NCBI GenBank assembly: GCA_001709035.1
Contig: LVKA01000008.1
Span: 62,001 to 126,000 of the forward strand
DNA: 64,000 nucleotides
Direction of reading: 5' to 3'
Source of the DNA: Candidatus Thiodiazotropha endoloripes
Lineage (GTDB): Bacteria > Pseudomonadota > Gammaproteobacteria > Chromatiales > Chromatiaceae
Position numbers and translations under genes: made by a program. Shown piece by piece: positions 2,769 through 61,786 of the stretch (within the stretch, counting starts at the first letter, position 1; the number at the start of each line of letters is the position of its first letter). The notes below the pieces were generated by a model that worked only from the letters and a program-made list of their open reading frames with translations, ran no database searches and was not told where the DNA came from.

Positions 2769-4145
2769 ATGTCGGTCAGTGTGTTCGATCTTTTCAAAAT
2801 CGGCATCGGACCATCGAGTTCCCATACGGTAGGACCGATGCTGGCCGCAAAACGCTTTATCGAGCAGCTCGATGAGGCCGGTCAGTTGGCCGGCACAAGC
2901 AGGCTGAAGATCGAGCTCTACGGTTCACTCGGTGCAACCGGTAAGGGGCATGGTACGGATAAGGCGGTGATCCTCGGGTTGCAGGGTGAGACACCGGAAG
3001 AGGTTGAAGTGGACGCGATTCCGCTGCGCATGGATCGGGTGCGGGTGGAGCGGCAGATCGAGCTCCATGGAGGACAGGTGATCGGGCTGGACCCCGATCG
3101 AGATCTGGTCTTCTATCGACGCAAACAGCTGGGTCTGCATCCCAACGGCATGTTGTTCACGGCATTGGATGAGGCGGGAGAGCCTGTAAAGCGTGGTGAG
3201 TTCTACTCGGTTGGGGGCGGATTTGTGGTGCAGACCGATGATCAGGGTGAGCCGCAGATTGTCGAGCAGCAGACTGAACTGAAATATCCATTCCACAGCG
3301 GTCGGGAGTTACTCGATCAGTGCGAGGCCAATGGTCTCTCTATTAGTCAATTGATGCTGGAAAACGAGCTGGCCTGGCGGGATAAAGCCGAGATCAGCCA
3401 GCAGCTGTTGGGAATCTGGCATGTGATGCAGCAGTGTGTCGAGAAGGGCTGTGAAACGGAGGGTCTATTACCGGGCGGTCTCAAGGTTAAGCGCAGAGCA
3501 CCAAGACTTTTCCGGCAACTGAGCAATGATGCCGAGCTGAGTACCGTACCCCTGGGGACCATGGACTGGGTCAACCTGTTTGCCCTGGCGGTGAATGAGG
3601 AGAATGCTGCCGGTGGCCGGGTTGTTACAGCGCCGACCAATGGGGCGGCGGGGATCATTCCGTCCGTACTTCACTACTACTGGCGATACTCCCCGGGCGC
3701 CAATGAAGAGGGCGTGGTGCGTTTTCTGTTGTGTGCCGGTGCGATCGGTATTCTCTACAAGGAGAATGCCTCCATATCCGGTGCCGAGGTGGGTTGCCAG
3801 GGGGAAGTCGGTTCGGCCTGTTCCATGGCGGCCGGAGCTCTGACCGAGGTACTGGGAGGCACGCCACAACAGGTTGAGAATGCGGCCGAGATCGGTATGG
3901 AGCACAATCTGGGCCTGACCTGTGACCCGGTGGGTGGATTGGTGCAGGTGCCGTGTATCGAACGCAATGCCATGGGGGCGGTGAAGGCGATCAATGCGGC
4001 CCGTATGGCCTTGAGAGGGGATGGTTCCCACTTCGTCTCTCTCGACAAGGTGATCAAGACCATGCAGGAGACGGGTGCCGATATGCAGACAAAATACAAA
4101 GAGACATCACGGGGCGGTCTGGCGGTGAACCTGGTAGAGTGTTAA
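2769..4145 (+). CDS. sdaA: L-serine ammonia-lyase (L-serine dehydratase), iron-sulfur type
   Basis: The enzyme deaminates L-serine to pyruvate and ammonia with a [4Fe-4S] cluster. The N-terminal beta domain begins [21 protein letters not shown], a signature of single-chain bacterial serine dehydratases. The alpha domain carries the conserved [18 protein letters not shown] stretch and the cluster cysteines in [25 protein letters not shown] and [12 protein letters not shown]. With the start used here, three of these fall at 343, 385 and 396, the positions I recall for the Legionella enzyme. This, and the AAAGGAG seven bases upstream, favours the ATG at 2769 over the in-frame ATG at 2763. The length of 458 residues is normal. 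The stop codon TAA lies inside a copy of the GTTAACAGGCCCTAA repeat. Confidence 0.95.
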
Positions 4146-4155
4146 CAGGCCCTAA
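4141..4155 (+). repeat. Interspersed 15-bp repeat, copy 1
   Basis: The sequence GTTAACAGGCCCTAA begins in the last sense codon of sdaA and supplies its TAA stop. The same word recurs at 15271, 23495, 28340, 38833 and 61773, and in inverted orientation at 61500. Confidence 0.85.
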
Positions 4156-4324
4156 GCGGACCGCTTTGAGAGTCTGGAGCTGTCTGTTGCAGCTAGGCTT
4201 GGTCCGGATGAAATGGACGATTGCCTCATCGGGCTACACAAATCTGATTTGCTTGCTTCTGATAAGCGATTAGAATCAGTGGCACTGCTGTCGGGCCTGC
4301 AGTTGGAGAGGAGAAGGATGCGCC

Positions 4325-5080
4325 ATGACCATTGCCAACGATGACGAGAGTTTTCTATCTTGGGATCATGCCTGCCGTTTTGTTGGCGACGAAAAGATTC
4401 TGCGTGAGATGGAGGAGCTCTATCTCCATTTTGCCGGGTTTGCTTCAGTCGAGGTGCAGGAGCGCTCCTACGAGCGGGTCTACGTGGATGGCTATCTCAG
4501 GCTCTATCCGGCGGATGTCAGTGAACTGAAACGGGGCCTATCGGTGACCTGTAACAGTGCACTGATCGATCACCACATGAGTATCAACGGCGTCGTCAGA
4601 GAAGAGCTGTTTCAGAAATTTTTGGTGTTCGACGATGAATTGCTCATCGGTCTCTCTGTCGAGAAAGGTAACAGTGCCTATAACTACCCCTCGGATATCA
4701 GTTTTTATCATGAAGATCTGTACCAGATGTGCGACAGGATCGGCATCAAACCAGGTGTTCCGGTCGATCCCTCCCCTGACAGTCAACTGACGACGCCAAC
4801 CCCTGACAGTCAATTGCTGGCGCCATCCTCTGACAGCCAGCCCCTGGATTCGTCTGAGAGTACGCTGGATGAGTTGAATCTGATCGGCGCACTGGCCTGT
4901 ATGCTGGCAATGAACAATGATCTTGAGGAGTCACTGCGTGATGGTCAGCATATCTCCGAAATCATCATTGACGATCTGTTTACCATGCTCGATGGGCTCG
5001 GGGTCGAAATGGACGGCAAAAAGAAGTTTCTCTATGAGCGTCTGATCTCAAAGGGTGTCAAGTCGATTCTTGACGATTAG
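4325..5080 (+). CDS. Hypothetical protein with three 9-residue repeats
   Basis: The 251-residue protein has no signal peptide or membrane segment and no family that I recognise. It is acidic. An N-terminal part of about 145 residues is followed by a flexible linker with three tandem 9-residue repeats (PDSQLTTPT, PDSQLLAPS, SDSQPLDSS; near residues 151-177) encoded by 27-base units. A C-terminal helical part follows (LIGALACMLAMNNDLEESL). A GGAGAAGG eight bases upstream supports the ATG at 4325. It stands alone between sdaA and the suf operon. Function is not assigned. Confidence 0.7.
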   Translation: MTIANDDESFLSWDHACRFVGDEKILREMEELYLHFAGFASVEVQERSYERVYVDGYLRLYPADVSELKRGLSVTCNSALIDHHMSINGVVREELFQKFLVFDDELLIGLSVEKGNSAYNYPSDISFYHEDLYQMCDRIGIKPGVPVDPSPDSQLTTPTPDSQLLAPSSDSQPLDSSESTLDELNLIGALACMLAMNNDLEESLRDGQHISEIIIDDLFTMLDGLGVEMDGKKKFLYERLISKGVKSILDD

Positions 5081-5349
5081 TCGTAAAAGACCTTCAGCCA
5101 ATCTACGGTTTGTGCCTGGGTTCGGTTCACTGCGTAACCCTTGTCCTATTAGGGTATAGGGACTGTTCCAGTTGTTTGTATTCTTTCTATCCTATTGATT
5201 ATTAAATAATTAAATAGGTTTGGAAAATGCCTCTCCCACTATTCCCCTTAAATTGGATTGTGTTTAGCTCTTGCAAACCATAATACCTGACTATATTACT
5301 AAGTTATTACTTGGTCGCCTTGATTTTTTAAAGGCTGGGATGTGTTTTG

Positions 5350-5577
5350 ATGGTTACACTTTTTCAACTCTTTTCGGTACGCTGTTGTGGTGGTCCCGTG
5401 GGCTTTTTAACCCTGATCAGTATCGCTGTTGGTCTGCTGTTTCTGGTGCTCTCCGCGACTGAGCTGGCTGTGGTTTTCATGATGGCCGGTAGCGTTGCAA
5501 TGCTCTCCTGTCTCTATCTCGGAAGCAGTCGTTGTGGCGCTGTGTGTAACAAGCGGTCACTTCCCGATCAGCATTAA
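5350..5577 (+). CDS. Possible small membrane protein upstream of sufB
   Basis: This open frame of 75 codons fills the gap before sufB and ends 13 bases before its start. It encodes two adjacent hydrophobic segments ([18 protein letters not shown] and [19 protein letters not shown]) and several cysteines. The ribosome-binding site is weak (GGGA at about 10 bases). It could be a real leader gene of the operon or chance coding in the 5' region. No family is recognised, and it is not a regulator of the IscR or SufR type. Confidence 0.35.
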
Positions 5578-5590
5578 ACGGAGTCACGAT

Positions 5591-7036
5591 ATGGGTCAGA
5601 CAAACAGTGAAATGGAGGCGTTGATTGCGGCTGAATATGCCCAGGGTTTCATCACCCGGATCGACTCCGATACCTTTCCTCCCGGTTTGGACGAAGCGGT
5701 GGTGCGCGCTATCTCGGAGCGCAAGGGAGAGCCGGAATGGATGCTGCAAAAACGTCTCGAAGCCTACCGCCACTGGTTGACAATGGATCAACCCGATTGG
5801 GCGGTAATCAACCATCCGCCTATCGATTTTCAGCAGATCTCCTACTACTCCTCGCCGAAGCAGTCACCGAAGCTTGAGAGTCTGGATCAGGTCGATCCGG
5901 AAATTCTTGCCACCTATGAAAAGCTCGGTATCTCCATCGAGGAGCAAAAGGCGCTGTCCGGGGTTGCGGTTGATGCGGTCTTCGACAGTGTCTCCGTGGC
6001 CACCACCTTTCGAGAGACGCTCGCTGAAGCTGGTGTGATCTTCTGCGCCATCTCTGAAGCGTTGCGGGATTATCCGGAGCTGGTGCGTCAATACATGGCC
6101 TCTGTGGTGCCCCATAAGGATAATTTTTTTGCCGCGCTCAACAGTGCCGTGTTCAGTGATGGAACCTTTGTCTATATACCAGAAGGTGTCAAATGCCCGA
6201 TGGAGCTCTCCACCTATTTTCGCATCAATGAAGCGAAAACCGGTCAGTTTGAACGTACCCTGATCATTGCAGAGGCGGGCAGTGAGGTGAGCTATCTGGA
6301 GGGCTGTACCGCGCCGATGCGGGATGAAAACCAACTCCATGCCGCGGTGGTTGAACTGGTGGCGATGGAGGATGCAAAGATCAAGTATTCAACCGTGCAG
6401 AACTGGTATCCGGGTGATCTTGAGGGCAAGGGGGGTATCTACAACTTTGTCACCAAGCGGGGTGACTGTCGAGGGGATCGCTCCCACATCTCATGGACTC
6501 AGGTGGAGACCGGATCCGCAGTCACCTGGAAATATCCCAGCTGTATTCTGCGCGGTAGGGACAGCGTCGGTGAGTTCTACTCGGTTGCTGTAACCAAGGG
6601 TTTTCAACAGGCCGATACCGGCACCAAGATGATCCATATCGGTGAAAACAGTCGCAGCACGATTGTCTCCAAGGGTATTTCCGCAATGCAGGGCAGTAAC
6701 GCCTATCGAGGCCTGGTGAGGATTGCCGGCAAGGCGGAAAACGCGCGTAACCACACCCGTTGCGATTCCCTGTTGATCGGTGACCGTTGTGCCGCCCACA
6801 CCTTTCCCTATATCGAGGTGAAGAATCCAACTGCCAAGGTGGAGCATGAAGCCACTACTTCGAAGGTCAGTGAGGATCAGCTCTTCTATTGTCGACAAAG
6901 AGGGCTGACGGAAGAGGATGCGGTGTCGATGATCATCAATGGGTTCTGTAAAGAGGTCTTCCAGGAGCTGCCGATGGAGTTTGCAGTCGAGGCTCAGAAA
7001 CTGCTCGCTGTGAGTCTCGAAGGGGCGGTCGGATAG
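5591..7036 (+). CDS. sufB: Fe-S cluster assembly scaffold SufB
   Basis: SufB forms the SufBC2D scaffold on which iron-sulfur clusters are built in the cytoplasm. The 481-residue product has the family's N-terminal helical region and the long beta-helix core, with typical stretches [62 protein letters not shown] and [18 protein letters not shown]. It ends with [22 protein letters not shown]. The open frame extends 32 codons upstream, but the ATG at 5591 has a CGGAGT at six bases and starts where SufB proteins normally start. It is the first gene of the SUF operon. Confidence 0.96.
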
Positions 7037-7101
7037 GTTTGTAACGGAGTCATCAGAGCTGTGGATGATGCGATTCTCTGCAGTATTAATGAGGTAAAGA
7101 G

Positions 7102-7854
7102 ATGTTAGCCATTAAGAATTTAACAGCCAGTGTGGATGGAAAAGAGATCCTGAAAGGCGTGGATCTTCAGGTTGAGGCTGGAGAGTTGCATGCCATCATG
7201 GGACCGAACGGTTCAGGCAAGAGTACTCTGGCACACATTCTGGCGGGTCGTGACGGTTATTCCGTAACCGGTGGTGAGGTTCGCTATCTGGGTGAAGACC
7301 TGTTGCAGCTGGAAGTGGAAGAGCGGGCCCGGCAGGGCCTGTTTCTGGCAATGCAATATCCGGTGGAGTTGCCCGGGGTGAATAATATGAGTTTCCTGCG
7401 CGAATCGATGAATGCATTGCGCAGAGCCCGGGGTGAACCTGAGATCGATACCCTCAGTTTCATGAAGCAAGTAAAAGAGAAGGCCAGACAGGTAAAACTC
7501 GATGAGAAGCTGTTGAAACGATCTGTCAATGCGGGCTTCTCCGGAGGGGAGAAGAAACGCAACGAAATTCTGCAGATGGCGATGCTTGAACCGAAACTGG
7601 CGATCCTCGACGAGACCGACTCAGGGCTCGATATCGATGCCTTACGGACAGTGGCGGACGGAGTCAATCGGTTGCGTACAGCGGAACGGGGCATGCTTGT
7701 GGTGACCCACTATCAACGGCTGCTCGACTATATTCAGCCGGACAAGGTGCATGTGTTGGCAGATGGTCGGATTGTACGCAGTGGTGGTAAGGAACTGGCA
7801 TTAGAGCTTGAAGCCAGAGGTTATGGCTGGTTGCTCGAGGAGGCAGCGGCATGA
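7102..7854 (+). CDS. sufC: Fe-S cluster assembly ATPase SufC
   Basis: This is a 250-residue ABC-type ATPase that binds SufB and SufD and drives conformational change in the scaffold. Walker A is GPNGSGKST (about residues 34-42), the signature is GFSGGEKKRNEILQM and Walker B is LAILDETDSGLD, with the SufC-specific EKKRNEI and DETDSGLD wording. It follows sufB by 65 bases and its stop overlaps the sufD start (ATGA). Confidence 0.96.
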   Translation: MLAIKNLTASVDGKEILKGVDLQVEAGELHAIMGPNGSGKSTLAHILAGRDGYSVTGGEVRYLGEDLLQLEVEERARQGLFLAMQYPVELPGVNNMSFLRESMNALRRARGEPEIDTLSFMKQVKEKARQVKLDEKLLKRSVNAGFSGGEKKRNEILQMAMLEPKLAILDETDSGLDIDALRTVADGVNRLRTAERGMLVVTHYQRLLDYIQPDKVHVLADGRIVRSGGKELALELEARGYGWLLEEAAA

Positions 7855-9188
7855 TCCTCTCCCCGAGTGACTACAAGCGTGGCACACTGCAGGGTATCGA
7901 ATCTCTGCCCATGAGTTCCGGTGATTGGATGATTGACCGGCGCCTGGCTGCTCTGGAAAGGTTTGAAACGCTGGGTTTTCCCGATCGACGTTCGGAAGCC
8001 TGGCGTTACACCAGTGTGGAGGGCTTGCTTAAGCAGGGCTTTACTGCTCCAGCCAAGAGTTCGCAAAGGGATCGGGATGACGGGATTCAGAACCATCTGT
8101 TGGAAATTGCCACGCTGGGACGCCTGGTGTTTATCGACGGTCAGTTCATCGAAGAGCACTCAGTTTATCCCTCGGAAGGCGTCAGGGTAACCAGTCTTAA
8201 AACGGCCATGGCAACAGGGGATCGCCAGGTTTTGGAGGCGGTGGGTAGTCTGTCAGGCTTGGGTGACGATGGATTTGCGGCGTTGAATCTGGCCGGTTTT
8301 CAAGATGGGGCAGTGATACGGATCGCCCCGGATGTCAGGCTGGATGGGCCAATGGAGTTGCTTCACTTGAGCACGGACAGGGTAGAAGGGCACAAACTGC
8401 CTACCCGTCACCTGATTCTGCTGGAGCGTGGCAGTCAGGCTGAATTGATTGAACGCTTCATCTCAGAGGATCAACAGAGTAGCTATTTCAACCATCAGGT
8501 GGTCGAGATCAGCCTGGCTGAGCAGGCCACTCTGAGTCACAAGCGCATTCAGATGGAGAGTCGTCAGGCCTATCATCTGAGCGATCTGCATATCGCACTG
8601 CAGAGCAAGGCAGCCTACTACGGGGTAATGGCAGCGATTGGAGGCTGCTGGTCACGCACCTTTATCTCAAATCGTTTTCAACAACCCGATGCCCATTGTG
8701 AACTGGATGGTCTCTATCTCGTGGATGATGGGCAGCTGACTGATTTTCATCTCGATATTGATCACCAGTTGGCCAATTGCAGTAGCCGGGAGAACTTCAA
8801 AGGGATCTTGCGTGGTGCCGGCAAAGCGGTTTTCGATGGCCTGATACAGGTTGGTAAGGGGGCGCAAAAAAGTGAGGCCCATCTGCATAATGCCAATCTG
8901 ATGTTGTCGAGACAGGCTGAAGTGGATACCAAACCCCAGTTGACGATTCTGGCCGATGATGTGATCTGCAGTCATGGCACATCGGTTGGGCAGCTGGATG
9001 ATCAGGCGATTTTCTATCTGCGCTCCCGGGGGCTTGATGAACAGCGGGCCCGGGCTTTGTTGTGTCAGGGATTCCTGGCGGAAATCATCGAGAAATTTGA
9101 ACACCAGGCCTTGATCGAGCTGCTTAACAGACGCATGAACTTTGTCGGTTTGACAGAACCGGAGACGAATCATGAGTCGCTTGGTTGA
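7851..9188 (+). CDS. sufD: Fe-S cluster assembly protein SufD
   Basis: This SufB paralogue completes the SufBC2D complex. The 445-residue protein has the N-terminal helical part (RRSEAWRYTSVEGLLKQGF), the beta-helix core, and the SufD C-terminus with DDVICSHGTSVGQLDDQAIF, LRSRGLDEQRARALLCQGF and the conserved SHG histidine. Its start overlaps the sufC stop by four bases, and its 3' end overlaps sufT by 17 bases, so the genes are translationally coupled. No cysteine desulfurase gene follows, although sufS usually lies here. Confidence 0.95.
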   Translation: MILSPSDYKRGTLQGIESLPMSSGDWMIDRRLAALERFETLGFPDRRSEAWRYTSVEGLLKQGFTAPAKSSQRDRDDGIQNHLLEIATLGRLVFIDGQFIEEHSVYPSEGVRVTSLKTAMATGDRQVLEAVGSLSGLGDDGFAALNLAGFQDGAVIRIAPDVRLDGPMELLHLSTDRVEGHKLPTRHLILLERGSQAELIERFISEDQQSSYFNHQVVEISLAEQATLSHKRIQMESRQAYHLSDLHIALQSKAAYYGVMAAIGGCWSRTFISNRFQQPDAHCELDGLYLVDDGQLTDFHLDIDHQLANCSSRENFKGILRGAGKAVFDGLIQVGKGAQKSEAHLHNANLMLSRQAEVDTKPQLTILADDVICSHGTSVGQLDDQAIFYLRSRGLDEQRARALLCQGFLAEIIEKFEHQALIELLNRRMNFVGLTEPETNHESLG

Positions 9189-9531: not shown

Positions 9532-9607
9532 TGTTTGTAATGATGTGAGTCCTGGCGGGCATCATGGTTGTTCATGAGGCTCTTTTCAGGATAGTAGAGG
9601 TGTCGAG

Positions 9608-9934: not shown

Positions 9935-10038
9935 AATCTTCAACTCTGGCAGCTCCGCCTTGATCAACAGTATGGTTGAAAATCTGCAGGTAACCGATTT
10001 GGGCGTCGGCTGGATATTGTGCATGGGAACAAGCTGAT

Positions 10039-10482: not shown

Positions 10483-10502
10483 TCTGCTGCGATCGAGTTC
10501 GA

Positions 10503-14526: not shown

Positions 14527-15237
14527 CTATTCAAGCTGCAACTCGATCTTTCCGTTCGCATCCACTCTCAAGGTCTGGCTGCCAGCCTCAAGGGTGGGGG
14601 CTGAAGCCCGCCCCTCAATGGCCATCATGTTGGCGCGCATCGGGTAGGGCGCCGGGGAGTGATCAATGGTCTGCAGATGCATTTCAACCAGACGATAATG
14701 GCTGCGTCCCATCTGTTCAGTGACTTGCTCGGCTCGTTTGCGAAAAGCGCTGATCGCCTGGGTGGTAAGAGACTCCTCGGCAGTCTGGCGTTTTTTCGTT
14801 GAGATCGTGTAGCTCAGGGAGTCCAATGCCAATTTGGATTGCAAACTACCCAGCAAGCTACTCATGGCGGGGCTTGTTTTGCTCTCCAGTCGAATCGATT
14901 GCCGAACCCTCCAGCCAATAAGCTGTTGTTGATGATAACGTGGGGAGGTTCGGTAGCCCAGTGTGCTGACCTTGATATCACTCCTTTGTTTCGCCGTTTT
15001 CACCGCTTCTGCGATCAGGCTGTTGACCTGATCGGTCAGCAGCTTGAGGTCGGTACCCTCCCGCTGAGCGTACAGGGTGGCAATTTGGGTGTCGTTATCC
15101 ACCTCCATTGTGGCGTAGGCATTGAGCTGCACCAGATCATATTGACGAGCTGGCTCCTCAGCGTGGAGGGGGGTAACTGAGATCACTGTAGCGATCAGGG
15201 TCAGACACGAATTTAGATAAAGACCTGTATGGCGCAT
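14527..15237 (-). CDS. SIMPL (DUF541) domain periplasmic protein
   Basis: The 236-residue protein has a signal peptide (LTLIATVISVTPLHAEE) and the SIMPL/DUF541 core: an N-terminal strand region, YRTSPRYHQQQLIGWRVRQSIRLES, then TTQAISAFRKRAEQVTEQMG and the C-terminal MRANMMA. The family includes E. coli YggE, linked to lowering oxidative stress, but the biochemical role is unclear. The repeat copy at 15271 lies about 35 bases before the start. Confidence 0.85.
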   Translation of the reverse strand: MRHTGLYLNSCLTLIATVISVTPLHAEEPARQYDLVQLNAYATMEVDNDTQIATLYAQREGTDLKLLTDQVNSLIAEAVKTAKQRSDIKVSTLGYRTSPRYHQQQLIGWRVRQSIRLESKTSPAMSSLLGSLQSKLALDSLSYTISTKKRQTAEESLTTQAISAFRKRAEQVTEQMGRSHYRLVEMHLQTIDHSPAPYPMRANMMAIEGRASAPTLEAGSQTLRVDANGKIELQLE

Positions 15238-15270
15238 GGCTCCTCCGGGGGATGTCTATTCTTGAGCTCT

Positions 15271-15285
15271 GTTAACAGGCCCTAA
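15271..15285 (+). repeat. Interspersed 15-bp repeat, copy 2
   Basis: An exact GTTAACAGGCCCTAA lies between the 3' end of the ThiF-family gene and the 5' end of the SIMPL gene. Confidence 0.85.
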
Positions 15286-15386: not shown

Positions 15387-16259
15387 CTAGACTGTTTCTG
15401 CGGAAGCAGCCAACTGGCGGCTGCCGAACCAGATTGCCAGACGCTGCAAAGGATGACGATTTCCGCCAGGTCTCCAGGTTTTGGCGAGTCGGTTTTCATA
15501 GGCATCGAATTGCAACCCCCAAGGGGCCGCTGTAACTGCTCCTCGTCCGAGCAGCAGTTTCAAAACCTGACTGGCGGCGAACCCAGCGCAGATCTCGCAG
15601 CCCATGGCGGTTGAGGGGCCGCGCTTCGCCAGCAGATCGATCCGCTGCGGTTCTACCAGATAAGCCTGGTGCAGTCTCGCTGGGGCCAGGCCGACCAGGA
15701 ATCTCAGATATTGCTGATACTCGTCGACACCCTGAAGCTGAAAGTAGGATTCGAAACTCATCTCGCCCGGCAAGAAGCAGAGCAGTGCCGAACCCATTCC
15801 CAATGGCGCTGCCGTTACCGCAGGCAGTCCCATCTCATAACAGGCGGCAAACACTGCCCGCCTTGCCGTCATGGCAAAGAAATCGAGGCCATCCAGGTAG
15901 ATGTCACAATCCTGTAAAAACGCTTCTGCCTGATCCGCTTTCACCCCCTGGGGAAAAGGCTTGATATCCAGCTGCGGATTGATTGCCAGGGCCGCATCAA
16001 TCATGGTGTCGAGCTTAGGCTTGCCGACCGTGTCGAGATTTGCACCTGATTGACGATTGAAGTTTTCGACCGCAAAACTGTCGAAATCGGCCAGATTGAA
16101 TTGACCTATTCCAAGTCGGGTCAGGGTAAGCAGGTGGCTGCCGCCCACACCCCCCAGGCCTGCAATGGCGACTCGGGCTTTACCCAGTTGTTGCTGCTCT
16201 GATTCGGTAACCCAGCCGATGTTCCTTGAAAACGCCAGCTGATAATCAAAATTTTTCAT
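15387..16259 (-). CDS. ThiF/MoeB-family E1-like adenylyltransferase
   Basis: From the ATG at 16259 the product has 290 residues. It shows the Rossmann nucleotide-binding motif VAIAGLGGVGGSHLLTLTRLGIG, then FNLADFDSFAVENFNRQ (E1 adenylation signature) and GKPKLDTMIDAALAINP. A single CxxC is seen in MGCEICAGFAASQVLKLL. E1-like enzymes adenylate the C-terminus of small ubiquitin-like or peptide substrates; neither a ThiS/MoaD partner nor thiamine or molybdopterin genes are nearby. A longer frame starts with TTG at 16310, but the ATG matches the start of the conserved region and overlaps the acyltransferase gene by 14 bases, implying coupling with it. The physiological substrate is unknown. Confidence 0.85.
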   Translation of the reverse strand: MKNFDYQLAFSRNIGWVTESEQQQLGKARVAIAGLGGVGGSHLLTLTRLGIGQFNLADFDSFAVENFNRQSGANLDTVGKPKLDTMIDAALAINPQLDIKPFPQGVKADQAEAFLQDCDIYLDGLDFFAMTARRAVFAACYEMGLPAVTAAPLGMGSALLCFLPGEMSFESYFQLQGVDEYQQYLRFLVGLAPARLHQAYLVEPQRIDLLAKRGPSTAMGCEICAGFAASQVLKLLLGRGAVTAAPWGLQFDAYENRLAKTWRPGGNRHPLQRLAIWFGSRQLAASAETV

Positions 16260-17028
16260 TCGAGTGCAATTGCAGATTGTTGCCGGGGATTTGCCAGGGT
16301 TGTTGTGCAAGATTCTGTTTGATCAGATCGTAGAGCCGCCTGATGTCGTCAGGCATGTTGCTGGTTAGCTCACTGCTCGGCAGCTCAAACAGCGCACGTT
16401 TGCCATGCAGTTCAAAATCGTCACTGATTTTGTGGAACTGGAGTCCGAATCGGCTCAAGTGGCGTTGCAGTCTGGGTTCCATGACCACCAACACCAATTT
16501 TAGCCGGCACAGATCGACCAGAGCGATGGATGATAAATAGAGACCGATGGCAATGTTGGGAAAATTGCGACGCTCCTCTTCGGTATACATTGTATTTGTG
16601 TTGTGACTGTCCAGGATAAACGGTTTGCCGGTTTCGTTGGCCCTGCGCCGAAAATGGAGTGGTACAGCCAGCCGGGATATTTCGCCGATATCCGTGGGTG
16701 GGATTTGCAACAGGCGTTCGCTCTTTACATTGGGAATCTGGTGTAACTGATAGGGCAGGTAATTATCAGGTCTGCCCGCAGACGGGACCACCAACCTGAC
16801 GCAACCTGCAATATCGCCACTACGGATATGTTCAAGCAGACAGTGGTGGGAATACGCATCGCAGTGATCTGTTTCAAGTCGGCTGCTGCTGGATGGCTCC
16901 CAGCCTAACTCTTCTGCATAGACTTTGTAGCGAATACTGTAACTGAAACGCTTTTGGTGTCGGGATGCGGCGTAGCGCGGATTGAAAAATTGAAAGAAAT
17001 TTTGCGCCAGCCTCTCCATGTCTCTCTC
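16246..17028 (-). CDS. PEP-CTERM/exosortase system-associated acyltransferase
   Basis: The product resembles the acyl-homoserine-lactone-synthase-like acyltransferases found with exosortase/PEP-CTERM systems. Matching stretches are FFQFFNPRYAASRHQKRFSYSIRYKVYAEELGWEP, DAYSHHCLLEHIRSGDIAGCVRLVVP, LPPTDIGEISRLAV-like QIPPTDIGEISRLAVP, and FPNIAIGLYLSSIALVDLCRLKLVLVVMEPRLQRHLSRFG. The family is thought to transfer or synthesise an acyl product in protein sorting or surface polysaccharide systems, but this is not proven. Candidate starts are the ATG at 17028 and one at 17016 (GGAGAG five bases upstream); the longer frame to 17106 is less likely. It is coupled to the downstream ThiF-family gene. 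No exosortase gene is in the window. Confidence 0.8.
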   Translation of the reverse strand, partial: ERDMERLAQNFFQFFNPRYAASRHQKRFSYSIRYKVYAEELGWEPSSSSRLETDHCDAYSHHCLLEHIRSGDIAGCVRLVVPSAGRPDNYLPYQLHQIPNVKSERLLQIPPTDIGEISRLAVPLHFRRRANETGKPFILDSHNTNTMYTEEERRNFPNIAIGLYLSSIALVDLCRLKLVLVVMEPRLQRHLSRFGLQFHKISDDFELHGKRALFELPSSELTSNMPDDIRRLYDLIKQNLAQQPWQIPGNNLQLHSNEKF

Positions 17029-23436: not shown

Positions 23437-23476
23437 ACTCTAACGGATGAGTGGAAGTGTCGAGTTCTCCTTTCTT

Positions 23477-23509
23477 AGGGCCTATTGGATCAGTGTTAAC
23501 AGGCCCTGA
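23477..23509 (+). repeat. Interspersed repeat, copy 3, with partial inverted partner
   Basis: GTTAACAGGCCCTGA lies at 23495-23509, with one change from the common form. Eleven bases upstream is AGGGCCT (23477-23483), the inverted form of AGGCCCT, so the pair could form a small hairpin or be a collapsed two-ended element. Confidence 0.75.
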
Positions 23510-28339: not shown

Positions 28340-28354
28340 GTTAACAGGCCCTAA
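28340..28354 (+). repeat. Interspersed 15-bp repeat, copy 4
   Basis: An exact GTTAACAGGCCCTAA lies about 75 bases upstream of the monoheme cytochrome gene, between it and the tRNA gene. Confidence 0.85.
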
Positions 28355-38832: not shown

Positions 38833-38846
38833 GTTAACAGGCCCTA
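38833..38846 (+). repeat. Interspersed repeat, copy 5
   Basis: GTTAACAGGCCCTA is followed by G rather than A. Its CTA (38844-38846) is, on the reverse strand, the TAG stop of the HerA-like ATPase gene. TAGGG just upstream can pair with CCCTA across eight bases. Confidence 0.85.
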
Positions 38847-40325
38847 GCCTTTCCCCATGATCGATCCGAGTATGCCGCGAATGATCTGCTTGCCCAGCCT
38901 GGAACCGATCGCCCGGGCGATCGATTTGGCAAACGCCTCACCAACTCCTTGTTTTCTTGAACCGCCGCTGCGACGCTTGCTGCTTTTGGCCTGCTTCTCC
39001 TGCTCCTCGGATCTGGCCTGCTCCTCGCGACGCTTGATCAGCTCCTCTTCCCGTTTTTTCAGCAGTTCATAGGCGGACTCCCGATCGACCGTCTCGCCAT
39101 ATTTGGATTTCACCGGCGAGCGACCGATGATCTTTTTACGTTCCGCTTCACTGACCGGACCGAACTGGGAGCAGGGTGGGGACATCAGGGTCTTCTCCAC
39201 TATGCTCGGCACACCCTTTTCGTCCAAGGTGGAGATCAACGCTTCACCGACCCCCAGGTTACTGATCATCTCCTCGGTGTCGAAGGCCGGGTTCTCACGG
39301 AAGGTCTCGGCCGCCGCTTTGACCGCTTTTCTGTCCTTCGGGGTGAAGGCCCGCAGGGCGTGCTGAATGCGGTTACCCAACTGACCGATGACCTGATCCG
39401 GCACATCGTTGGGATACTGGGTGACAAAAAACACCCCGACCCCCTTGGAGCGAATCAGTCGCACCACCTGGGTGATCTTCTCCAGCAGCGCCTTCGGCGC
39501 ATGGCTGAACAGCAGGTGGGCTTCGTCGAAAAAGAACACCAGTTTCGGCAGGTCCGCATCACCCCGTTCCGGCAGCTCTTCCATCAGTTCGGAGAGCAGC
39601 CAAAGCAGAAAGGTGGCGTAGATGCGGGGTGAATGATAGAGGGTGGTTGCATCGAGAATACTCACCACTCCCCGGCCGGAGAAGTCGTTCTGCATCAGAT
39701 CCTCGATGTGCAGTGCCGGTTCGCCAAAGAAGATCTCACCGCCCGCCTCCTCCAGGGTCAGCAAGCGTCGCAGAATGGCCGTGACGCTCTGCCGGGAGAC
39801 CCGGCCATATTCCCGTTCGAGATCCTTGGCGTTGTCCGCAACCCAGTTGAGCATGGCACGCAGATCCTTCAGATCGAGCAGCAGCAGCCCTTCATCGTCC
39901 GCCAGGCTGAATGCGATCTGCAGTACGCCCTCCTGGGTCTCGTTGAGTTCCAGCAGATTGGCCAGCAGAGTCGGGCCCATTTCCGAGACCGTCGTCCGAA
40001 CCGAATGTCCCTGTTTGCCGAACACATCCCAGAAGAGCACCGGGCAGGGCTCGAAGTTGTGCGCTTCAATCTTGATATAGTCGAGCCGTTCAGTGATCTT
40101 TGGGTGAGCCTTGCCGGCGCCGGCAAGACCGGAGAGATCGCCTTTTACATCCGCGGTAAATACCGGTACGCCGAGGCGGGAGAAGGATTCCGCCAAGACC
40201 TGCAGGGTTACGGTTTTACCGGTTCCAGTGGCCCCGGTGATCAGACCGTGACGGTTCGCCATCCCGGCGTTGAGCAGTATCTGTCGATCACCATTACCAC
40301 CGAGCAGAATGTTATTGTTGGTCAT
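38844..40325 (-). CDS. HerA-like/DUF853 AAA ATPase
   Basis: The 493-residue protein has Walker A ITGATGTGKTVTLQVLAESF, VFTADVKGDLSGLAGAG after it, and Walker B LPKLVFFFDEAHLLFSHAP followed by VRLIRSKGVGVFFVTQYPNDVPDQV. These match DUF853 (HerA C-terminal helicase-like) proteins. A charged helical segment (residues about 415-455) precedes a C-terminal tail SIARAIGSRLGKQIIRGILGSIMGKG. A NurA nuclease is not encoded nearby. The biological role is uncertain. The stop lies in a repeat copy. Confidence 0.9.
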   Translation of the reverse strand: MTNNNILLGGNGDRQILLNAGMANRHGLITGATGTGKTVTLQVLAESFSRLGVPVFTADVKGDLSGLAGAGKAHPKITERLDYIKIEAHNFEPCPVLFWDVFGKQGHSVRTTVSEMGPTLLANLLELNETQEGVLQIAFSLADDEGLLLLDLKDLRAMLNWVADNAKDLEREYGRVSRQSVTAILRRLLTLEEAGGEIFFGEPALHIEDLMQNDFSGRGVVSILDATTLYHSPRIYATFLLWLLSELMEELPERGDADLPKLVFFFDEAHLLFSHAPKALLEKITQVVRLIRSKGVGVFFVTQYPNDVPDQVIGQLGNRIQHALRAFTPKDRKAVKAAAETFRENPAFDTEEMISNLGVGEALISTLDEKGVPSIVEKTLMSPPCSQFGPVSEAERKKIIGRSPVKSKYGETVDRESAYELLKKREEELIKRREEQARSEEQEKQAKSSKRRSGGSRKQGVGEAFAKSIARAIGSRLGKQIIRGILGSIMGKG

Positions 40326-52488: not shown

Positions 52489-55400
52489 TCAGTGAACGGC
52501 TGATGTGTCAGGTTTGATGATTTCACTCAGGACGTCCACCAATGGCGTAGGTTTACCGAAGTGGTAACCCTGCCCGTAATCCACACCCATATGTTTCAGC
52601 GCCATGGCGGTCGTCTCATCCGAGACAAATTCGGCGATTACCCGTTTTTCCATGAAATGGGCGATTTCGGTGATCGAGCTGATCATCGCATAATCCGCCG
52701 GTTTGTTGAGAATCTCGCGCACAAAGATGCCATCGATTTTGACGTAATCCACCGGGAAATCCTTCAGGTAGGAGAAGGAGGCGTATCCGGAACCGAAGTC
52801 GTCCAGGGAGAAAGCGCAGCCGAGTTCGCGGATCTCATTGATGGTGGCTGCTGTATCACTGATATCCCCCACCAGGGCGGTTTCGGTGATCTCAAAACCA
52901 AAATGTTTGGTCTCAAGAGAGGTGCCTTTGATGCGCTCGATCAGCATTCGCTTGAAGTCCATGTCCCCAAGGGATTTGCCGGAGAGGTTGATGGAGAAAC
53001 TCTGTCCATCGGGGAGCTGGTGGGCATAGGGTTCCAGCTGTTTGAAGAAGGCTTCCACTACCCAGCGGTCCACATCCCGCATCAGATCATAGGTTTCCGC
53101 GGCCTCGATGAAAGCCTGAGGCGACTCAAGTTCACCATTCTCATTGCGCACCCGCAGCAGGATCTCATGGTGGTGAGACGTCAGCTGGTTCGATTGCAGG
53201 GGGACGATGGGCTGGACAAACAGTTCCATGCGCCCTTTGGCCAACGCCTCTTTGATGCCGGGTAGCGATTCCACCAGCTGTTGACGTTGCTGATAGACCG
53301 AATCGCTCTTCAGATAGATGCGGGTGCAGTTACCGCCGCCCTGCTTGGCCATGTTGCAGGCAGCTAATGCAGCTTGCATCAGCTTATCCGCTTTTTCGTC
53401 GCTGCTATCGATTTCGACGATACCGACACTGGCGGTGGTCGGAATCATACGCCCTTGCCACTCAAACGTGGTCTCATCAATCGTCTGACGCAGCATCTCA
53501 GCGGCCTGATACCCGGCCTCCAGATTCTCTTGTGCCAATAGCAGGGAGAATTCATCGTCACCAATTCGGCCCAAAGCGCCACCTTCCGGCAGATAGCTGA
53601 GCAGGATGTCAGTGACGATCTGTAACAGCTTGTCGCCACCTTCGAATCCGCACAGGTCATTCACCACCTGAAATCTGTCCAGGTCGATCTGCAGCAGGAT
53701 GCCGCTATCTTTCTCTGTCTGATTGAGGTATTTGCTTAGTTCGGCTTCGAATGCCCGACGGTTGTAGAGTCCGGTCAGCGAATCGATCTCGGATTCCTGC
53801 TTGAAGTCACTGTAACTGTTGGCAAGCATGGTTTCGATGGTGCGCTCGACGATCGGTTTGGCGGAAGACTCCATCACGCTGATCTGCTGATCGGCGAAGC
53901 GGTTTGCCAGATTGTCCAGGGTTTCATCGAGTGCCTTGAAGCCATCCCCGTCGACCAGCAGATAGCGGTCTGTCTGCGGGTTTTTCCAGGCCAGACTGAG
54001 GACATTGAGCTGGCCTTTCTCATCCTGCTTGACCAGCCAGGTATCCAGCTCGATCTTGTTAACCGTGTGGCGCCACTGATCGCCTGCTGTAGTATCGCCA
54101 TTGCCGGCATGGTCAATGTCCATGCCTTGAAAATAGTGATGAAGGTAGGCTTCGTTCACTTCGATCCGCAGGTCGGGGAACTGGTCACCTTCCGCGCCGA
54201 TCTCGAGAATTCGTTGTAATTCCTGTTCAAATGACTTGGCTTGTTCGGCGTAGATTGGATAGTCCGTGAAGCCTTTATGAATCATCGTCATCATCGCCTG
54301 TTGCTGCTTGGCGGTCAGCTGATGTTTTCCTGGTGGATCTGAAAAGATTCGGTGTAGCAGCTCAACGATCTGTAGATAACCTTGCCAACCTGTCTCGTCC
54401 GCTTTTTCCAGGACTGCGGTCTGTACCATCAGATTGACCCAGCCGAAGCGAAACAGCTTGTCGACGATTGGTGAGATGGTCTGGTTGAGGAGGGTCTTTG
54501 AGAGCGCCTGGTAAGTGGTCAACTGCGCCCGCCGGAGCTTTTCATCCTTGAGGCAGCGTGAGATGGAGAGTTTTCGGTTGGCCTCGAAACGGCTGCGTTG
54601 CTCGCTCAACAGCTGCTCCAGTTCACTATTGACTTCATCCACATGATTGAACTTGCCGCTCTCCACCGCTTCGGTAATCTGCGTCAGCTGCTGCGTATCC
54701 CTGTCACGCAGTAGCGAACGTTGGTTTTCACGATTGACATAGGGTTTCAGGCATTCGATTGTATCGAGTAGCCGTCTTACCGGGTGGTCGCTGTTCTCCA
54801 GCAGACTGGTATCCTGCAGCACCGCTTCGATGATGAGAAATTTAAGACTGCCCATCAGCTCCCGTATCTGCTCGGTGATCAATGGGTCTTCGCTCAGGGT
54901 GGCGACCAGCTCCTCACCGGCGCCGATTGCCGCCCGGGCTTCAGCGGAAAGTTGGACCGGCTTTGAACTCTCCTCCTGAATCAGGTTTTCGATCTGCTGC
55001 TGCAGGGTGGCGGCCTGGAGTCTGGAGAGAGAGGCCAGGCTGGTCATAACCTCCTTGCGTTCATCGTCCGACATGCCTTGGGTCGGTTCCTGGGCGTCAC
55101 TGTCCGGGTGGAGGTTACTGAGTTTGCTCAGATGGCCGATCGGGGTGTCGTGGATCGTATGCGCGTCACTGCTTTTGATGATTGTCCACGCAGATTGGGA
55201 TGGACTTTCAAGGCCATCGATGTGGGCTTTGTTTATCTGTTTTAACAGATTTTCGTAGAAGCGATTCAATCCATTTAGCAGGGTGCTGCGAAAGGCAATC
55301 AGTAAAATGCGTATGATTTTGGCATCGAACTGATAGCTATCCAGCAGGTTTTTAAAGATGGTCAGCAGGCTAATCGGGGCGATTGGATTGAGTTCGTTGT

Positions 55401-56205
55401 GTACGTTGCTGTGACAGAGGTGACTGAGGGCTGTCTCAATATGGTAAAGCGGACGGGAGACCTCAGATTCAGCCCGACGGGCTACATCATTGACCAGGAT
55501 CCAGGTTTCTATCTCCTGGGTTTCTACCAGGGACAATTCAAGGTCGTTGTCCGAGCTTGGGGCGGTTTCGCTTGTCTTGCCTTCTATCAGGTCGCTAAAC
55601 CCGTGCTCAAATTGCTCTATGAATTGCTGATTGAGTTTGTGCTGGTCTTTTTCCAGGCTGTTAAGTGCGAAAAAGAGACTGGACTGCTCCTGGGGATCGA
55701 CGGAATCAACGATGACCTTTTGCAGCTCCTTTTGAGCAACCGTGAAAAAATCGCTTAAACCGTGCTCCAGATAAGGTTTTGTGAGTGCCTGAATCTGATT
55801 CAGCAGATCCTGCTGCTGTTTTGGGTCGTGATGATTGTCGGCAACCCGGCTCTCCGAGTCAGCGCTGGATGCCTGGTGGTGAGGATAGAGTGACTCAAAC
55901 AGCCTGGTGCCGCTGCCGTTGGCGAAAGAGAGCCCCATGCCGCCATGGTCGAAGTAGACAACCCGTGCAGGTACCTGTTGTGATTCCTGCGGGACTATGA
56001 GAAGAATCTCTTCTCGATCGACTTCCGAGATGTAGCCGTGGGGTAGGGCTTCATTGAGACGGGTATCACTGCAGCACAGATAGACGCCGCCACGGGAAAA
56101 GTTGAGCATCCGGCAGTCATCAAAGCTCTCGGATTGATATTCGATTACCACCGGAATATCAATTTTCAAGCGTGGGTGGCGTCTGCGATTCCTTTGGTCT
56201 TTCAA
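52489..56205 (-). CDS. PilZ-DUF1631-GGDEF-EAL cyclic di-GMP protein
   Basis: The 1238-residue protein begins with a PilZ domain ([17 protein letters not shown], with the RxxxR motif and NFSRGGVYL). A long helical DUF1631-like region (about 135-780; [20 protein letters not shown]) follows. The GGDEF domain near 800-960 ([20 protein letters not shown]) has its signature as GRIGDDEF, so the second Gly is Asp and cyclase activity is doubtful. The EAL domain (about 985-1230) has EILLR for EALLR, [21 protein letters not shown] and [25 protein letters not shown]; the key metal-binding acids are kept, so it may hydrolyse c-di-GMP. No membrane segments are seen. Confidence 0.9.
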   Translation of the reverse strand: [1238 protein letters not shown]

Positions 56206-56545
56206 AGTTGTTGTCCTATCTGGTTAAGTCCATTTAATCCTTAGTGAATCTAGGGGTTATGGATTGGCTGTTGTTGATCCCTAAATAAGCTATAGGGTTA
56301 TCGGCAGAGTGTGTGTTTGGCTTTAGTCAATGGACCAATTAGTGACTGGGTGAATTGTTAAATAATGTTCTTTATGAGCCATTTGTCTGGATCCATAACA
56401 ACCACACCCCGGTTTTTTCAAAGTTGGCAATGGAGGGATCTAAAGCGCAGAATAGTGGTCAGTTTTAATGTCAGAAACCTGGGGCCTGTGAATGGGCCTC
56501 ATCAACGAAACTCAACCTGGCGAGCTGTGGATCTGTCTCAATAAC
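56206..56545. other. Divergent intergenic region, no gene seen
   Basis: The region separates the PilZ-GGDEF-EAL gene from the M48 peptidase gene and should hold both promoters. No clear regulatory site is identified. Confidence 0.4.
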
Positions 56546-58025
<1,480 letters not shown>

Positions 58026-58096
58026 CAGCTTCAAGGATTGGATCTCGACCCCACAAGCTATACTATAGCGACCCTTATTTTGAACCGGGACTGACA

Positions 58097-59446
58097 ATGG
58101 CCGGAAAACTCTACATCAAAACCTTCGGTTGCCAGATGAATGAATACGATTCATCGCGCATGGCGGATGGCCTGCGCGTGGCTGCCGGACTGGAGCTGAC
58201 GGAGGATCCGGAAGCGGCGGATGTGTTGCTGCTGAATACGTGTTCGATCCGGGAAAAGGCGCAGGAGAAGGTCTTCTCCCAGCTCGGGCGCTGGCGCCCG
58301 TGGAAGGAGCGCAATCCCGCACTGATCATCGGGGTGGGTGGTTGCGTGGCCAGCCAGGAGGGTGATGCGATTCGTCAGCGTGCGCCCTATGTGGATCTGG
58401 TTTTCGGGCCCCAAACTCTGCATAGACTGCCGGATATGGTGCAGCAGGTACGCCGAGAGCATGCCCCGCTTGTGGATGTCAGCTTCCCGGAGATCGAGAA
58501 ATTTGATCGCCTGCCGGAGCCCAGGGCCGAGGGTCCGACTGCCTATGTCTCGGTGATGGAGGGGTGTTCCAAATACTGCACCTACTGCGTGGTGCCCTTT
58601 ACCCGCGGTGAGGAGATCAGTCGTCCGTTCGACGATGTGATCACCGAGGTGGCCGGTCTGGCCGAGCAGGGGGTGAGGGAGATCCATTTGCTCGGGCAGA
58701 ATGTGAATGCCTATCGGGGGGAGATGCATGAGGGGGGCGAGGCCGACCTGGCGCTGCTGATCGAATACGTGGCTGCCATCGAGGGTGTCGAGCGTATTCG
58801 CTTCACCACCTCCCACCCGGTTGAGTTTTCCGACAGTCTGATCGATGTCTATGGTCAGGTCCCTGAGCTGGTGAGCTTTCTCCATCTGCCGGTGCAGTCC
58901 GGTTCCGATCGGGTGCTGGCGATGATGAAGCGGGGCCATATGGCGGTGGAGTACAAGGCCAAGATTGCCCGGTTGCGCAAAGTGCGTCCCGATATCACCA
59001 TCTCATCCGATTTCATTGTCGGTTTTCCCGGCGAGACCGAGGCAGACTTCGAGCAGACTCTGAAGCTGATCGAGGAGGTCGGCTTCGATCACTCCTACAG
59101 CTTCATCTACAGTCGTCGGCCGGGCACCCCGGCAGCGGATCTGCCCGATGACGTGTCGTTGGAGATCAAGCAACAGCGGCTGGAGCGTCTGCAGCAGCTG
59201 ATCAATACTCAGGCACAAAGCATCAGCCGCCAGATGGTGGGTACCACCCAGAGGATTCTGGTGGAGCGCCCGGCGAAAAAGGATCCAGCGCAACTGGCGG
59301 GTCGTACTGAGAACAACCGGGTGGTCAACTTCACTGCACCCGCTGAACTGATCGGCCAGTTTGTCGAGGTGCGGATTACCGAGGCACTGCCCAACTCCCT
59401 GCGTGGGGAGTGGCTGGGACAGCTCAAGGAAAGCGCTGTTGGCTGA
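58097..59446 (+). CDS. miaB: tRNA-2-methylthio-N6-dimethylallyladenosine synthase MiaB
   Basis: This radical-SAM methylthiotransferase modifies A37 of tRNAs that read UNN codons. The 449-residue product has the N-terminal UPF0004 domain with cysteines in [24 protein letters not shown] and [11 protein letters not shown], the radical SAM motif [53 protein letters not shown], and a C-terminal TRAM domain ([27 protein letters not shown]). It heads a miaB-phoH-ybeY-ybeX cluster. Confidence 0.96.
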
Positions 59447-60413
59447 ACACCCTGAATCCCTGGATCTGGCTCTGGAGCCGGCCGACAACACCCGATTGGC
59501 CAATGTCTGTGGTCAACTGGATGAGCATCTGCGGCTGATCGAACGGCGCCTCGGTATCGAGATCAATAATCGTGGCAATCAGTTTCGTCTGATCGGTGAG
59601 AAGCACGCCATTCAGGCCGCTGAGCAGGTGCTGAATGATCTCTATCGCGCCGCCTCAAGTGAGCAGCTCGAACCGCAGCGGGTCCATCTCTTCCTGCAGG
59701 AGGCGGGGGTGGATGAGCTGCTGGATCAGAATCGGGGCAACGATCTGCCGGAGACGGTGATCAAGACCCGTCGGGGTTTGGTGCGTCCCCGGGGAGCGAA
59801 TCAGAAAGAGTACCTGCACAAGGTGCTGACCCACGATATCAATTTCGGTGTCGGCCCGGCCGGTACCGGTAAAACCTATCTGGCGGTAGCCAGTGCGGTG
59901 GATGCCCTGGAGCGGGATCAGGTGAGACGTATCCTGCTGGTCAGGCCGGCGGTGGAGGCTGGAGAGCGGTTGGGCTTTCTGCCGGGCGATCTGTCACAGA
60001 AAATCGATCCCTATCTGCGTCCGCTCTACGATGCGCTCTACGAAATGCTCGGTTTTGAAAAGGTCGCCAAGCTGGTGGAGCGTAACATCATCGAGATTGC
60101 CCCATTAGCCTACATGCGGGGGCGTACCCTCAATGAGTCCTTTGTGATTCTGGATGAGGCGCAAAACACTACCCCCGAACAGATGAAAATGTTTCTGACC
60201 CGGATCGGTTTCGGCTCCACCGCTGTGATCACCGGGGATGTGACCCAGATCGATCTGCCCAGAGGTCAGCAGTCGGGATTACGCCAGGTGACCGAGGTTC
60301 TGGCCCATGTCGAGGGGATCAGCTTTACCTTTTTCAATGCACGTGATGTGGTGCGCCATCCGGTGGTGCAGCGGGTCGTGCGCGCCTACGACGAGTTCGA
60401 TCAGCGTAACTGA
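59439..60413 (+). CDS. ybeZ: PhoH-family ATPase YbeZ
   Basis: The product of 324 residues has the KH-like N-terminal region and the PhoH ATPase domain: [22 protein letters not shown] (Walker A), [58 protein letters not shown] (Walker B), and [12 protein letters not shown]. It works with YbeY in RNA metabolism. The start is a TTG at 59439 (or CTG at 59436), chosen because CAAGGAAAG lies five bases upstream and it overlaps the end of miaB; the ATG at 59361 is deep inside miaB. Confidence 0.93.
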
Positions 60414-60421
60414 CAACCCCC

Positions 60422-60886
60422 ATGAGCAACTTGAAGTTGGAGATACAACGGATTGCCGAGGCATCCGAGGGTAGCCCCTCGGATCGGCAGCTGACGGCCT
60501 GGGCCGAGGCCGCCTTGGCAGATTCCGGAGAGCAGGTTGAGATGGTGATCCGGATCGTCGATGAGCCGGAGAGCCGGCAGCTGAACCGGGACTACCGGGG
60601 CAAGGACAAGCCGACCAATGTCCTCTCATTTCCATTTGAATCGCCGCCGGAAGTCGCGCTTCCACTGCTTGGCGATCTGGTGATTTGTGCCCCTGTGGTC
60701 TCGACAGAGGCGCGTCAGCAGAACAAAACCCTTGAAGCCCACTGGGCGCATATGGTGGTCCACGGCACCCTTCACCTGCAGGGTTATGACCACCAGGATG
60801 ATCAACAGGCGCAGCTGATGGAAGATAAGGAACGGCAGATCCTTCAGGCGCTCAATTTTTCCGATCCATACACAGACGAGAAGTAA
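60422..60886 (+). CDS. ybeY: Endoribonuclease YbeY
   Basis: This zinc-dependent ribonuclease matures 16S rRNA 3' ends and aids ribosome quality control. The 154-residue product has [32 protein letters not shown] and the metal motif [26 protein letters not shown] (HGxLHLxGYDH). It lies eight bases after phoH and overlaps ybeX (TAATG). Confidence 0.96.
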
Positions 60887-61590
60887 TGAACAGCGAAGAC
60901 CGATCAAGTAACGGTTCCTCCAACCGTTGGCTGGAACGCATCAGCCGAATGTTTGGCAGCGAACCGCAGGACAAGGAAGAGATCTACAATCTGCTGAAGG
61001 AGGCGAGTGAGCGGGAGTTGCTCGATAATGACGCCCTGAGCATGATGGAAGGGGCGATGCTGGTTTCCGAGCGACGGGCCAGGGATGTGATGACCCCAAG
61101 GGCCAAGTTGGAAGTGGTGCGGGCTGTCGATGACCTGGACGAGGTACTGAGGGTAGCTATCGATTCGGCCCACTCGCGGATGCCGGTGGTCGGTGAGGAC
61201 GTGGATGAGGTGCTGGGAATGCTATTGTCCAAGGATCTGTTGCCGTTCTTTCAGAAACAGCAGCGGGATCGCTTCGATATCCATGATGTGATGCGTGAAG
61301 CGTTGTTCGTGCCTGAAGCGATGCGTCTCAATCAACTTTTAAAGAACCTGAAAAAGAGCCGTAATCACATGGCCGTGGTTGTCGACGAATATGGTTCCAC
61401 GGCCGGTGTGGTGACCCTGGAGGATCTGCTTGAACAGATCGTTGGTGAGATCGAGGATGAGCACGATATTCCAGAGGAAGAGATGGATGGCGTTGTACAA
61501 GGGCCTGTTAACCCTAAAACAATACGTCCTGTTGTGCCTGAAAAAGCGCCAATCAAGGCGCGAGGAGAGAAGTTTGATTGTTCCAAATGA
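60886..61590 (+). CDS. ybeX: CorC/YbeX-type CBS-domain protein, C-terminally truncated
   Basis: The first ~204 residues match YbeX/CorC well: an N-terminal ERISRMFGSEPQDKEEIYNLLKEA, the CBS pair with RARDVMTPRAKLEVVRA, DSAHSRMPVVGEDVDEVLGMLLSKDLLPF and MAVVVDEYGSTAGVVTLEDLLEQIVGEIEDEHD. In relatives this is followed by a transporter-associated (CorC_HlyC) domain of about 80 residues. Here the homology stops at the exact point where an inverted copy of the interspersed repeat begins (61500), and 30 foreign codons follow, ending FDCSK. The loss of the C-terminal domain is due to a MITE-like insertion, probably with deletion. The protein may still be made. A role in magnesium/cobalt handling and ribosome biogenesis is known for intact homologues. 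Confidence 0.88.
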   Translation: MNSEDRSSNGSSNRWLERISRMFGSEPQDKEEIYNLLKEASERELLDNDALSMMEGAMLVSERRARDVMTPRAKLEVVRAVDDLDEVLRVAIDSAHSRMPVVGEDVDEVLGMLLSKDLLPFFQKQQRDRFDIHDVMREALFVPEAMRLNQLLKNLKKSRNHMAVVVDEYGSTAGVVTLEDLLEQIVGEIEDEHDIPEEEMDGVVQGPVNPKTIRPVVPEKAPIKARGEKFDCSK

Positions 61591-61786
61591 GCGACGAGCA
61601 ACGCCGAGTGGCGCTTTTTCGGGCACAACCCCCCCATATTGAAATAAAAAGAGGGGCTGGGACTGTTTTTGCGCCCAGCGGCGTTATCATTCGCTCATGT
61701 AGCCGAGCTACACTACACTCATTCTGCCTTGCAGGGCATAAAAACAGTCGCAGCAGGACGTATTGGATTCGTGTTAACAGGCCCTA
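61500..61786. mobile_element. MITE-like element with inverted terminal repeats inserted in ybeX
   Basis: The left end AGGGCCTGTTAAC (61500) and right end GTTAACAGGCCCT (61773) are inverted copies of the interspersed repeat. After a 7-base gap both ends continue with CAATACGTCCTG (as read inward), giving about 40-base inverted terminal repeats. Two long internal hairpins are nested inside: 61531-61551 pairs with 61609-61629 (20 of 21 bases match), and 61656-61676 pairs with 61734-61754 (18 of 21). No transposase is encoded. A clear target-site duplication is not visible. Confidence 0.8.
61773..61786 (+). repeat. Interspersed repeat, copy 7 (right end of element)
   Basis: GTTAACAGGCCCTA, followed by G, is the right terminus of the MITE-like element. 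Copy 6 is its left terminus, in inverted orientation, at 61500-61512. Confidence 0.85.

Follow-up and report, generated by a model that had tools for sequence, protein, structure and literature searches.

The window analyzed here is the whole stretch of 64,000 nucleotides of the Candidatus Thiodiazotropha endoloripes genome (contig LVKA01000008.1, positions 62,001 to 126,000), and the subject of this work is a short word, GTTAACAGGCCCTA, that recurs along it. This word makes up the outermost 13 bp of the terminal inverted repeat (TAGGGCCTGTTAACACTAATCCAAT...) that bounds a miniature inverted-repeat transposable element (MITE), which is present in the window both as a whole element and as lone ends. 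Exact copies of the word start at 4141, 15271, 28340, 38833 and 61773, all on the forward strand, and two copies carry one mismatch, at 23495 (forward strand, ending in CTG) and at 61499-61512 (reverse strand, ending in CTT). All seven sites listed in an earlier sequence-only reading of the window were thus recovered, but those at 61499 and 61773 are the two ends of a single 288-bp element. With up to three mismatches, the window contains 12 matches, compared with a mean of 2.9 and a maximum of 7 in 100 shuffles.

Hereinafter, G000 denotes the genome holding the window, G002, G004, G016 and similar labels denote related genomes, and L numbers denote individual loci. The whole MITE of the window (61499-61786, no strand assigned; 288 bp including both TA copies, of which the left one reads AA) is bounded by inverted ends at 61499-61512 (-) and 61773-61786 (+); its interior matches the MITE family and has a predicted DNA fold of -76.5 kcal/mol. 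Its insertion site lies in the end of the CBS-domain gene 60886-61590, whose last 30 codons or so and stop come from the element; G002 has no element at this locus. The five lone copies are all on the forward strand, within a region of positive GC skew. One is a canonical 34-bp short form (TTAGGGCCTATTGGATCAGTGTTAACAGGCCCTG, 23475-23508, +) that is not found in the G002 ortholog. The ragged lone end at 4141-4154 (+) provides the TAA stop of an sdaA-like gene (2763-4145), which terminates TGT TAA within the word; the G002 ortholog reads GAGTGTTGAT at this site and lacks the word. A second ragged end (15271-15284, +), located between the open reading frames (ORFs) 14527-15237 (-) and 15387-16310 (-), has no counterpart in G002, where the flank of the orthologous locus has diverged, and a third (28340-28353, +), with no further repeat sequence in its flank, is identical letter for letter in G002. 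The lone end at 38833-38846 (+) is preceded by TGGATTAGG, and its TA is part of the TAG stop codon with which a HerA-like gene (38844-40325, -) ends; G002 carries a decayed version, GTTAGCAGGTCCTAG. Hence the word does supply the stops of both genes for which this had been proposed, as a consequence of its sequence and not necessarily as a function: TAG can be read on one strand at each outer end, and TTAA is contained in the repeat.

The proposal that the word occurs well above chance holds genome-wide: the 13-mer GTTAACAGGCCCT has 163 exact copies in the 4.87 Mb of G000 (95 forward and 68 reverse), compared with none for the reversed word used as a control. In a set of 30 genomes (G000 counted), it is present in all 18 further genomes of the same genus, with 10 to 193 exact copies each, and absent from all 11 genomes of other families; its host group is Candidatus Thiodiazotropha, symbionts of lucinid clams. 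When GTDB contigs were scanned with a 24-base version of the word, at least 113 stretches matched; among the matches listed, most belong to Ca. Thiodiazotropha or clam-symbiont metagenome-assembled genomes (MAGs), and the others include Sedimenticola HyVt-446, Thiohalobacter thiocyanaticus Hrh1 and other gammaproteobacterial MAGs. The occurrence of the 267-bp form in T. thiocyanaticus Hrh1 (L106 and L171), a named isolate from another genus, suggests that the element has spread horizontally. A search for known RNA families across seven loci gave five matches, all in L106 and none of them at the element of that locus.

Across genomes, the word and its reverse complement form recurrent outward-facing pairs with fixed total lengths, mostly 267 bp and also 20, 229, 294, 321 bp and others, and therefore bound a short, many-copy element in the manner of MITE terminal inverted repeats. 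The conserved interiors are built from hairpin-forming halves; longer copies contain an additional unit of about 27 bp, and in them a hairpin-forming repeat of about 30 nt is present more than once. The predicted fold of the element is a cloverleaf of hairpins, and for one G002 copy the prediction with DNA parameters gives about -100 kcal/mol. Comparisons of empty and occupied sites give the insertion target as Y-TA-R, with the TA duplicated, most clearly for a MITE (L127 compared with L326 of G002) and for a short form (L176 compared with L365 of G002); the 20-mer palindromes (L330 compared with L187, and L337 with L150) and other cases fit the same duplication if one TA has mutated. A pyrimidine (C or T) flanks the TA on its outer side at 97% of the 164 ends of 82 MITEs and at 92% of the left and 96% of the right ends of 80 short forms, so that the two-sided target is common to both. 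Insertions into older copies were also observed: in G010, an older short form carries a MITE at its end, and in T. endolucinida, a MITE is inserted within the GTTAAC of an older lone end. The latter, compared with a lone end in G004, had been considered as a conversion of a MITE to a solo end and was rejected on the basis of this alignment. For a G016 palindrome and a RUGA MITE at one gene end, the flanks do not align to a single point. Of the origins offered by the sequence-only reading, the footprint of a mobile element end is thus the one that stands, as a MITE terminal inverted repeat; for a regulator or terminator site, no evidence was found (expression was not assayed).

Duplication of a TA target is found in the IS630/Tc1 group, to which it is not exclusive. 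Among 29 wider pairs of terminal inverted repeats listed from the loci analyzed, the ORFs of 10 were scanned and no transposase recognizing the MITE ends was found; all 10 contained ordinary gene families and were rejected as autonomous elements. An autonomous partner may exist elsewhere, since the search covered only these loci. Transposases of the DDE_3 family (PF13358) have no match in G000 and four matches in 3 of 22 genomes of the genus; when the four loci were read, one (L379) had an exact lone word and the other three had no word at up to three mismatches. L379 (G009:C291) contains an IS630-type DDE_3 ORF at approximately 975-2019, and the lone word lies about 0.7 kb beyond it, without a mate. 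Given the absence of DDE_3 from G000 and of paired ends from the four loci, an IS630-type enzyme is not supported as the resident mobilizer. A REP-associated tyrosine transposase (RAYT, where REP stands for repetitive extragenic palindromic sequence) is likewise not supported in G000: of its two Y1 loci, neither has the word at up to three mismatches in the loci examined, and the full-length Y1 gene has REPs of its own. This gene (L231, G000:C7:720551-723922; NF047646, above the cut-off) lies within inverted GTAGGGTGGGGC repeats, a separate repeat family that has no relation to the word.

The lone copies fall into two kinds. The canonical 34-bp form, YTAGGGCCnATTGGATTAGTGTTAACAGGCCCTA, comprises one whole repeat and only the TAGGGCC of the other, and the remaining copies, found by their constant right end, are ragged, with a variable left border. 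The strand bias relative to replication for which the sequence-only reading suggested a search is present. Fork direction was assigned from local GC skew in 20-kb stretches in G002 and from dnaA and GC skew in G004 and G016, with the terminus points estimated between sampled stretches at 0.68 Mb (G004) and 2.25 Mb (G016). Within the 99 of 102 exact sites covered in G002, 35 of the 36 canonical short forms read along the leading strand, as do 19 of 23 other lone ends and 5 of 6 remnants (see below), whereas ends with a partner are near even (20/34), as would be expected of symmetric elements. Short forms follow the leading strand in G004 (11/12 at 0-1 mismatch and 28/33 at up to three mismatches, with two of the five exceptions near 3.6 Mb, where the skew of the sampled stretch is 0.004) and in G016 (8/8); with the G002-style definition applied to the partly read genomes, the canonical counts are 11/15 (G004), 4/4 (G016) and 3/3 (G000). 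On contig C6 of G002, the switch of orientation coincides with dnaA. Gene direction was rejected as the cause of the bias because it holds alike in head-on tandem (6/6), divergent (7/7) and convergent (13/13) gaps, with 7/8 in gaps tandem with the fork; 726 of 1300 genes of G002 (ORF-based calls) are co-directional with the fork. None of the 36 canonical short forms lies inside an ORF, and 13 of the 34 with a classified context are located between convergent genes, which account for 18.5% of intergenic bases (one-sided p 0.006). The end that is kept is almost always the origin-distal one, and the losses are polar, which is seen as the bias.

The same polarity was examined in remnants, defined as MITE interior (interior score of at least 4) beside one end with the other end missing; adjacent stretches were joined, and only the partner's side had to lie inside the stretch. 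Leading-strand polarity is shared by 8 of 9 remnants with the exact word, 10 of 11 at up to one mismatch, where the contrary one is G002 C3:468446, and 12 of 15 at up to two. When sites near stretch ends are dropped, which omits this contrary remnant, the counts become 8/8, 10/10 and 12/14, and when the partner is allowed four mismatches, a criterion judged too loose, 6/6. Remnants are MITE derivatives because a short unit could not bring in interior sequence, and the presence of both L-type and R-type interior halves among them indicates that MITE orientation is not the cause of the polarity.

The origin of the lone copies that we favor, with modest confidence, is polar slipped-strand deletion of the hairpin-forming MITE during replication. 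The MITE would mostly decay through deletions whose endpoints are short direct repeats at or within its ends: loss of the sequence between the two TGTTAACA repeats would yield a palindrome of 20-24 bp, deletion between the outer TAGGGC(C) of one end and the inner AGGGC(C) of the other would yield the 34-bp short form with its one whole repeat, and deletion between flanking DNA and the element would yield ragged single ends. Loss of the origin-proximal end and retention of the origin-distal end would cause almost all short forms to read GTTAACAGGCCCT along the leading strand. In the simplest mechanism, slippage would occur on the lagging strand, where the polymerase would enter at the origin-distal end, copy that repeat and stall in the hairpins, after which the nascent end may pair again, now with the corresponding repeat at the border nearest the origin. 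The leading-strand alternative, namely stalling at the hairpin base and then a switch to the far arm at its inner repeat, would predict the same product; the lagging strand is probably the one on which the deletions occur, since the kept, origin-distal end is the first that its polymerase enters. In a survey of direct repeats of at least 5 nt between the terminal 36-nt stretches of 76 distinct MITEs, TGTTAACA was exact in 63, AGGGC(C)(T) was found in 42 and its mirror in 39, and other repeats occurred in few MITEs; the expected products are a 24-nt palindrome with flanks for the former and the two orientations of the short form for the latter pair. Repeat-mediated changes of length were observed between closely related genomes: about 145 bp between repeats of about 30 nt, present in G016 (L377, C1:2092300-2093000), are missing in G032 (L376), and G004 and G031 differ from G010 by a change between 17-nt repeats, the direction of which is not polarized. 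At one ragged end in G002, a host TGG is joined to a TGG of the repeat, and about 20 bp of host sequence are missing compared with L117.

Several observations weigh against deletion. Neither in 139 locus comparisons (22 aligned) nor in those of close relatives described above was a full MITE in one genome matched by a derived canonical short form in another; in the two apparent cases, a MITE had inserted within or next to a lone end that was already there. The AGGGCC junction occurs in 23 of the 36 G002 short forms compared with a source repeat of at least 6 nt in 8 of the 76 MITEs, an excess that can be reconciled only by a strong effect of repeat length or by loss of the parent MITEs. The bias of non-canonical lone ends is weak in the partly read genomes outside G002 (7/12 in G016, 6/9 in G004 and 6/7 in G000), the polarity of the remnants, a small sample, has p values from 0.01 to 0.13 over twelve threshold combinations, and two members of the remnant test are also counted as canonical elsewhere. 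The lack of a caught pair and the AGGGCC excess, together with the small hairpin retained in the short form and a TATCGG variant shared by six G016 short forms, leave room for a possible, if rather doubtful, scenario in which the 34-bp form is itself mobile and was inserted at the fork with a single orientation, by a Y1 enzyme as single-stranded DNA, in the style of IS200/IS605, or by a clamp-guided double-strand transposase. According to the review PMC5371812, a near-deterministic orientation bias characterizes both IS200/IS605 and Tn7 with TnsE. Short forms, with 36 canonical ones, outnumber full MITEs in G002, and their empty sites are clean. However, the target of the short form is the same two-sided Y-TA-R as that of the MITE, the interior-bearing remnants show the matching polarity (10/11), the 20-bp palindromes would be left unexplained, and a one-ended unit of 34 bp would lack the second site that a two-ended transposase needs. 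As for a Y1 enzyme, the full-length REP-type gene of G000 is bordered by its own, different repeats, the other Y1 gene is a truncated one, and no copy of the word lies within about 1.5 kb of either. That the short form is a separate tiny mobile unit, inserted at Y-TA-R in a fixed orientation by the fork and now more active than its parent MITE, we consider unlikely.

Strong polarity along the replichores would also be expected if the lone word were a selected functional site from which the MITE ends derived, that is, a terminator, a regulator, or a motif akin to KOPS (FtsK-orienting polar sequences), which are polar chromosome-organizing motifs. The conservation of some copies between G000 and G002, such as the one at 28340, and the enrichment between convergent genes fit such a site, but the copy number of the word within the genus ranges from 10 to 193, most canonical forms covered by the G000-G002 comparison are present in one genome and absent from the other, the left borders of lone copies are ragged and decayed orthologs are common, so that selection appears improbable. 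A REP family moved by a RAYT is still less probable: hairpin ends that occur as inverted pairs and as singlets do resemble REPINs (REP doublets forming hairpins), and PMC3116915 mentions singlets that arise by deletion between two REPs, but the GTAG tag is lacking, the ends being Y-TA-G, with A or G rare at the first base and TA on both sides, and no RAYT flanked by the word is present in G000.

If deletion is indeed responsible, these genomes hold a natural record of polar slippage in which each scar tells the end that was lost relative to the fork, and the sharing of one direction by one-sided relics of a symmetric element is explained. Palindrome-linked deletion is known mainly from plasmid assays, and its strand and direction would become testable from sequence alone across species. 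If insertion is responsible, the short form would represent an unusually small fork-targeted mobile unit. Under either reading, the lone MITE ends of other bacteria are worth comparing with replication direction. Among the matches listed in a search of open-license literature, no title deals with a Thiodiazotropha MITE or with fork-polarized MITE relics.

Among known systems, the Correia/NEMIS elements are TA-duplicating bacterial MITEs of the IS630/Tc1-like kind. The element described here resembles them in being short, gene-less, intergenic and hairpin-forming, with terminal inverted repeats and a duplicated TA, and differs in its sequence, in the lack of an IS630-type DDE_3 gene from G000 and in the fork polarity of its lone ends. 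Palindrome-linked slippage in Escherichia coli deletes sequence between short direct repeats located at hairpins and prefers one strand; both features recur in the deletions proposed here, but the pattern is a natural one that extends over the whole genome of an uncultured symbiont. REPINs and REP singlets (PMC3116915 and PMC3733652) likewise show hairpin-like ends in inverted pairs, accompanied by single ends, whereas the missing GTAG tag, the lack of a cognate RAYT in G000, the two-sided Y-TA-R target and the much longer interior set the element apart. Finally, as in IS200/IS605 and Tn7-TnsE (PMC5371812), orientation tracks the direction of replication, but the bias of those elements is one of insertion, whereas the full MITE is symmetric, and what is biased is the survival of one of its ends over the other.

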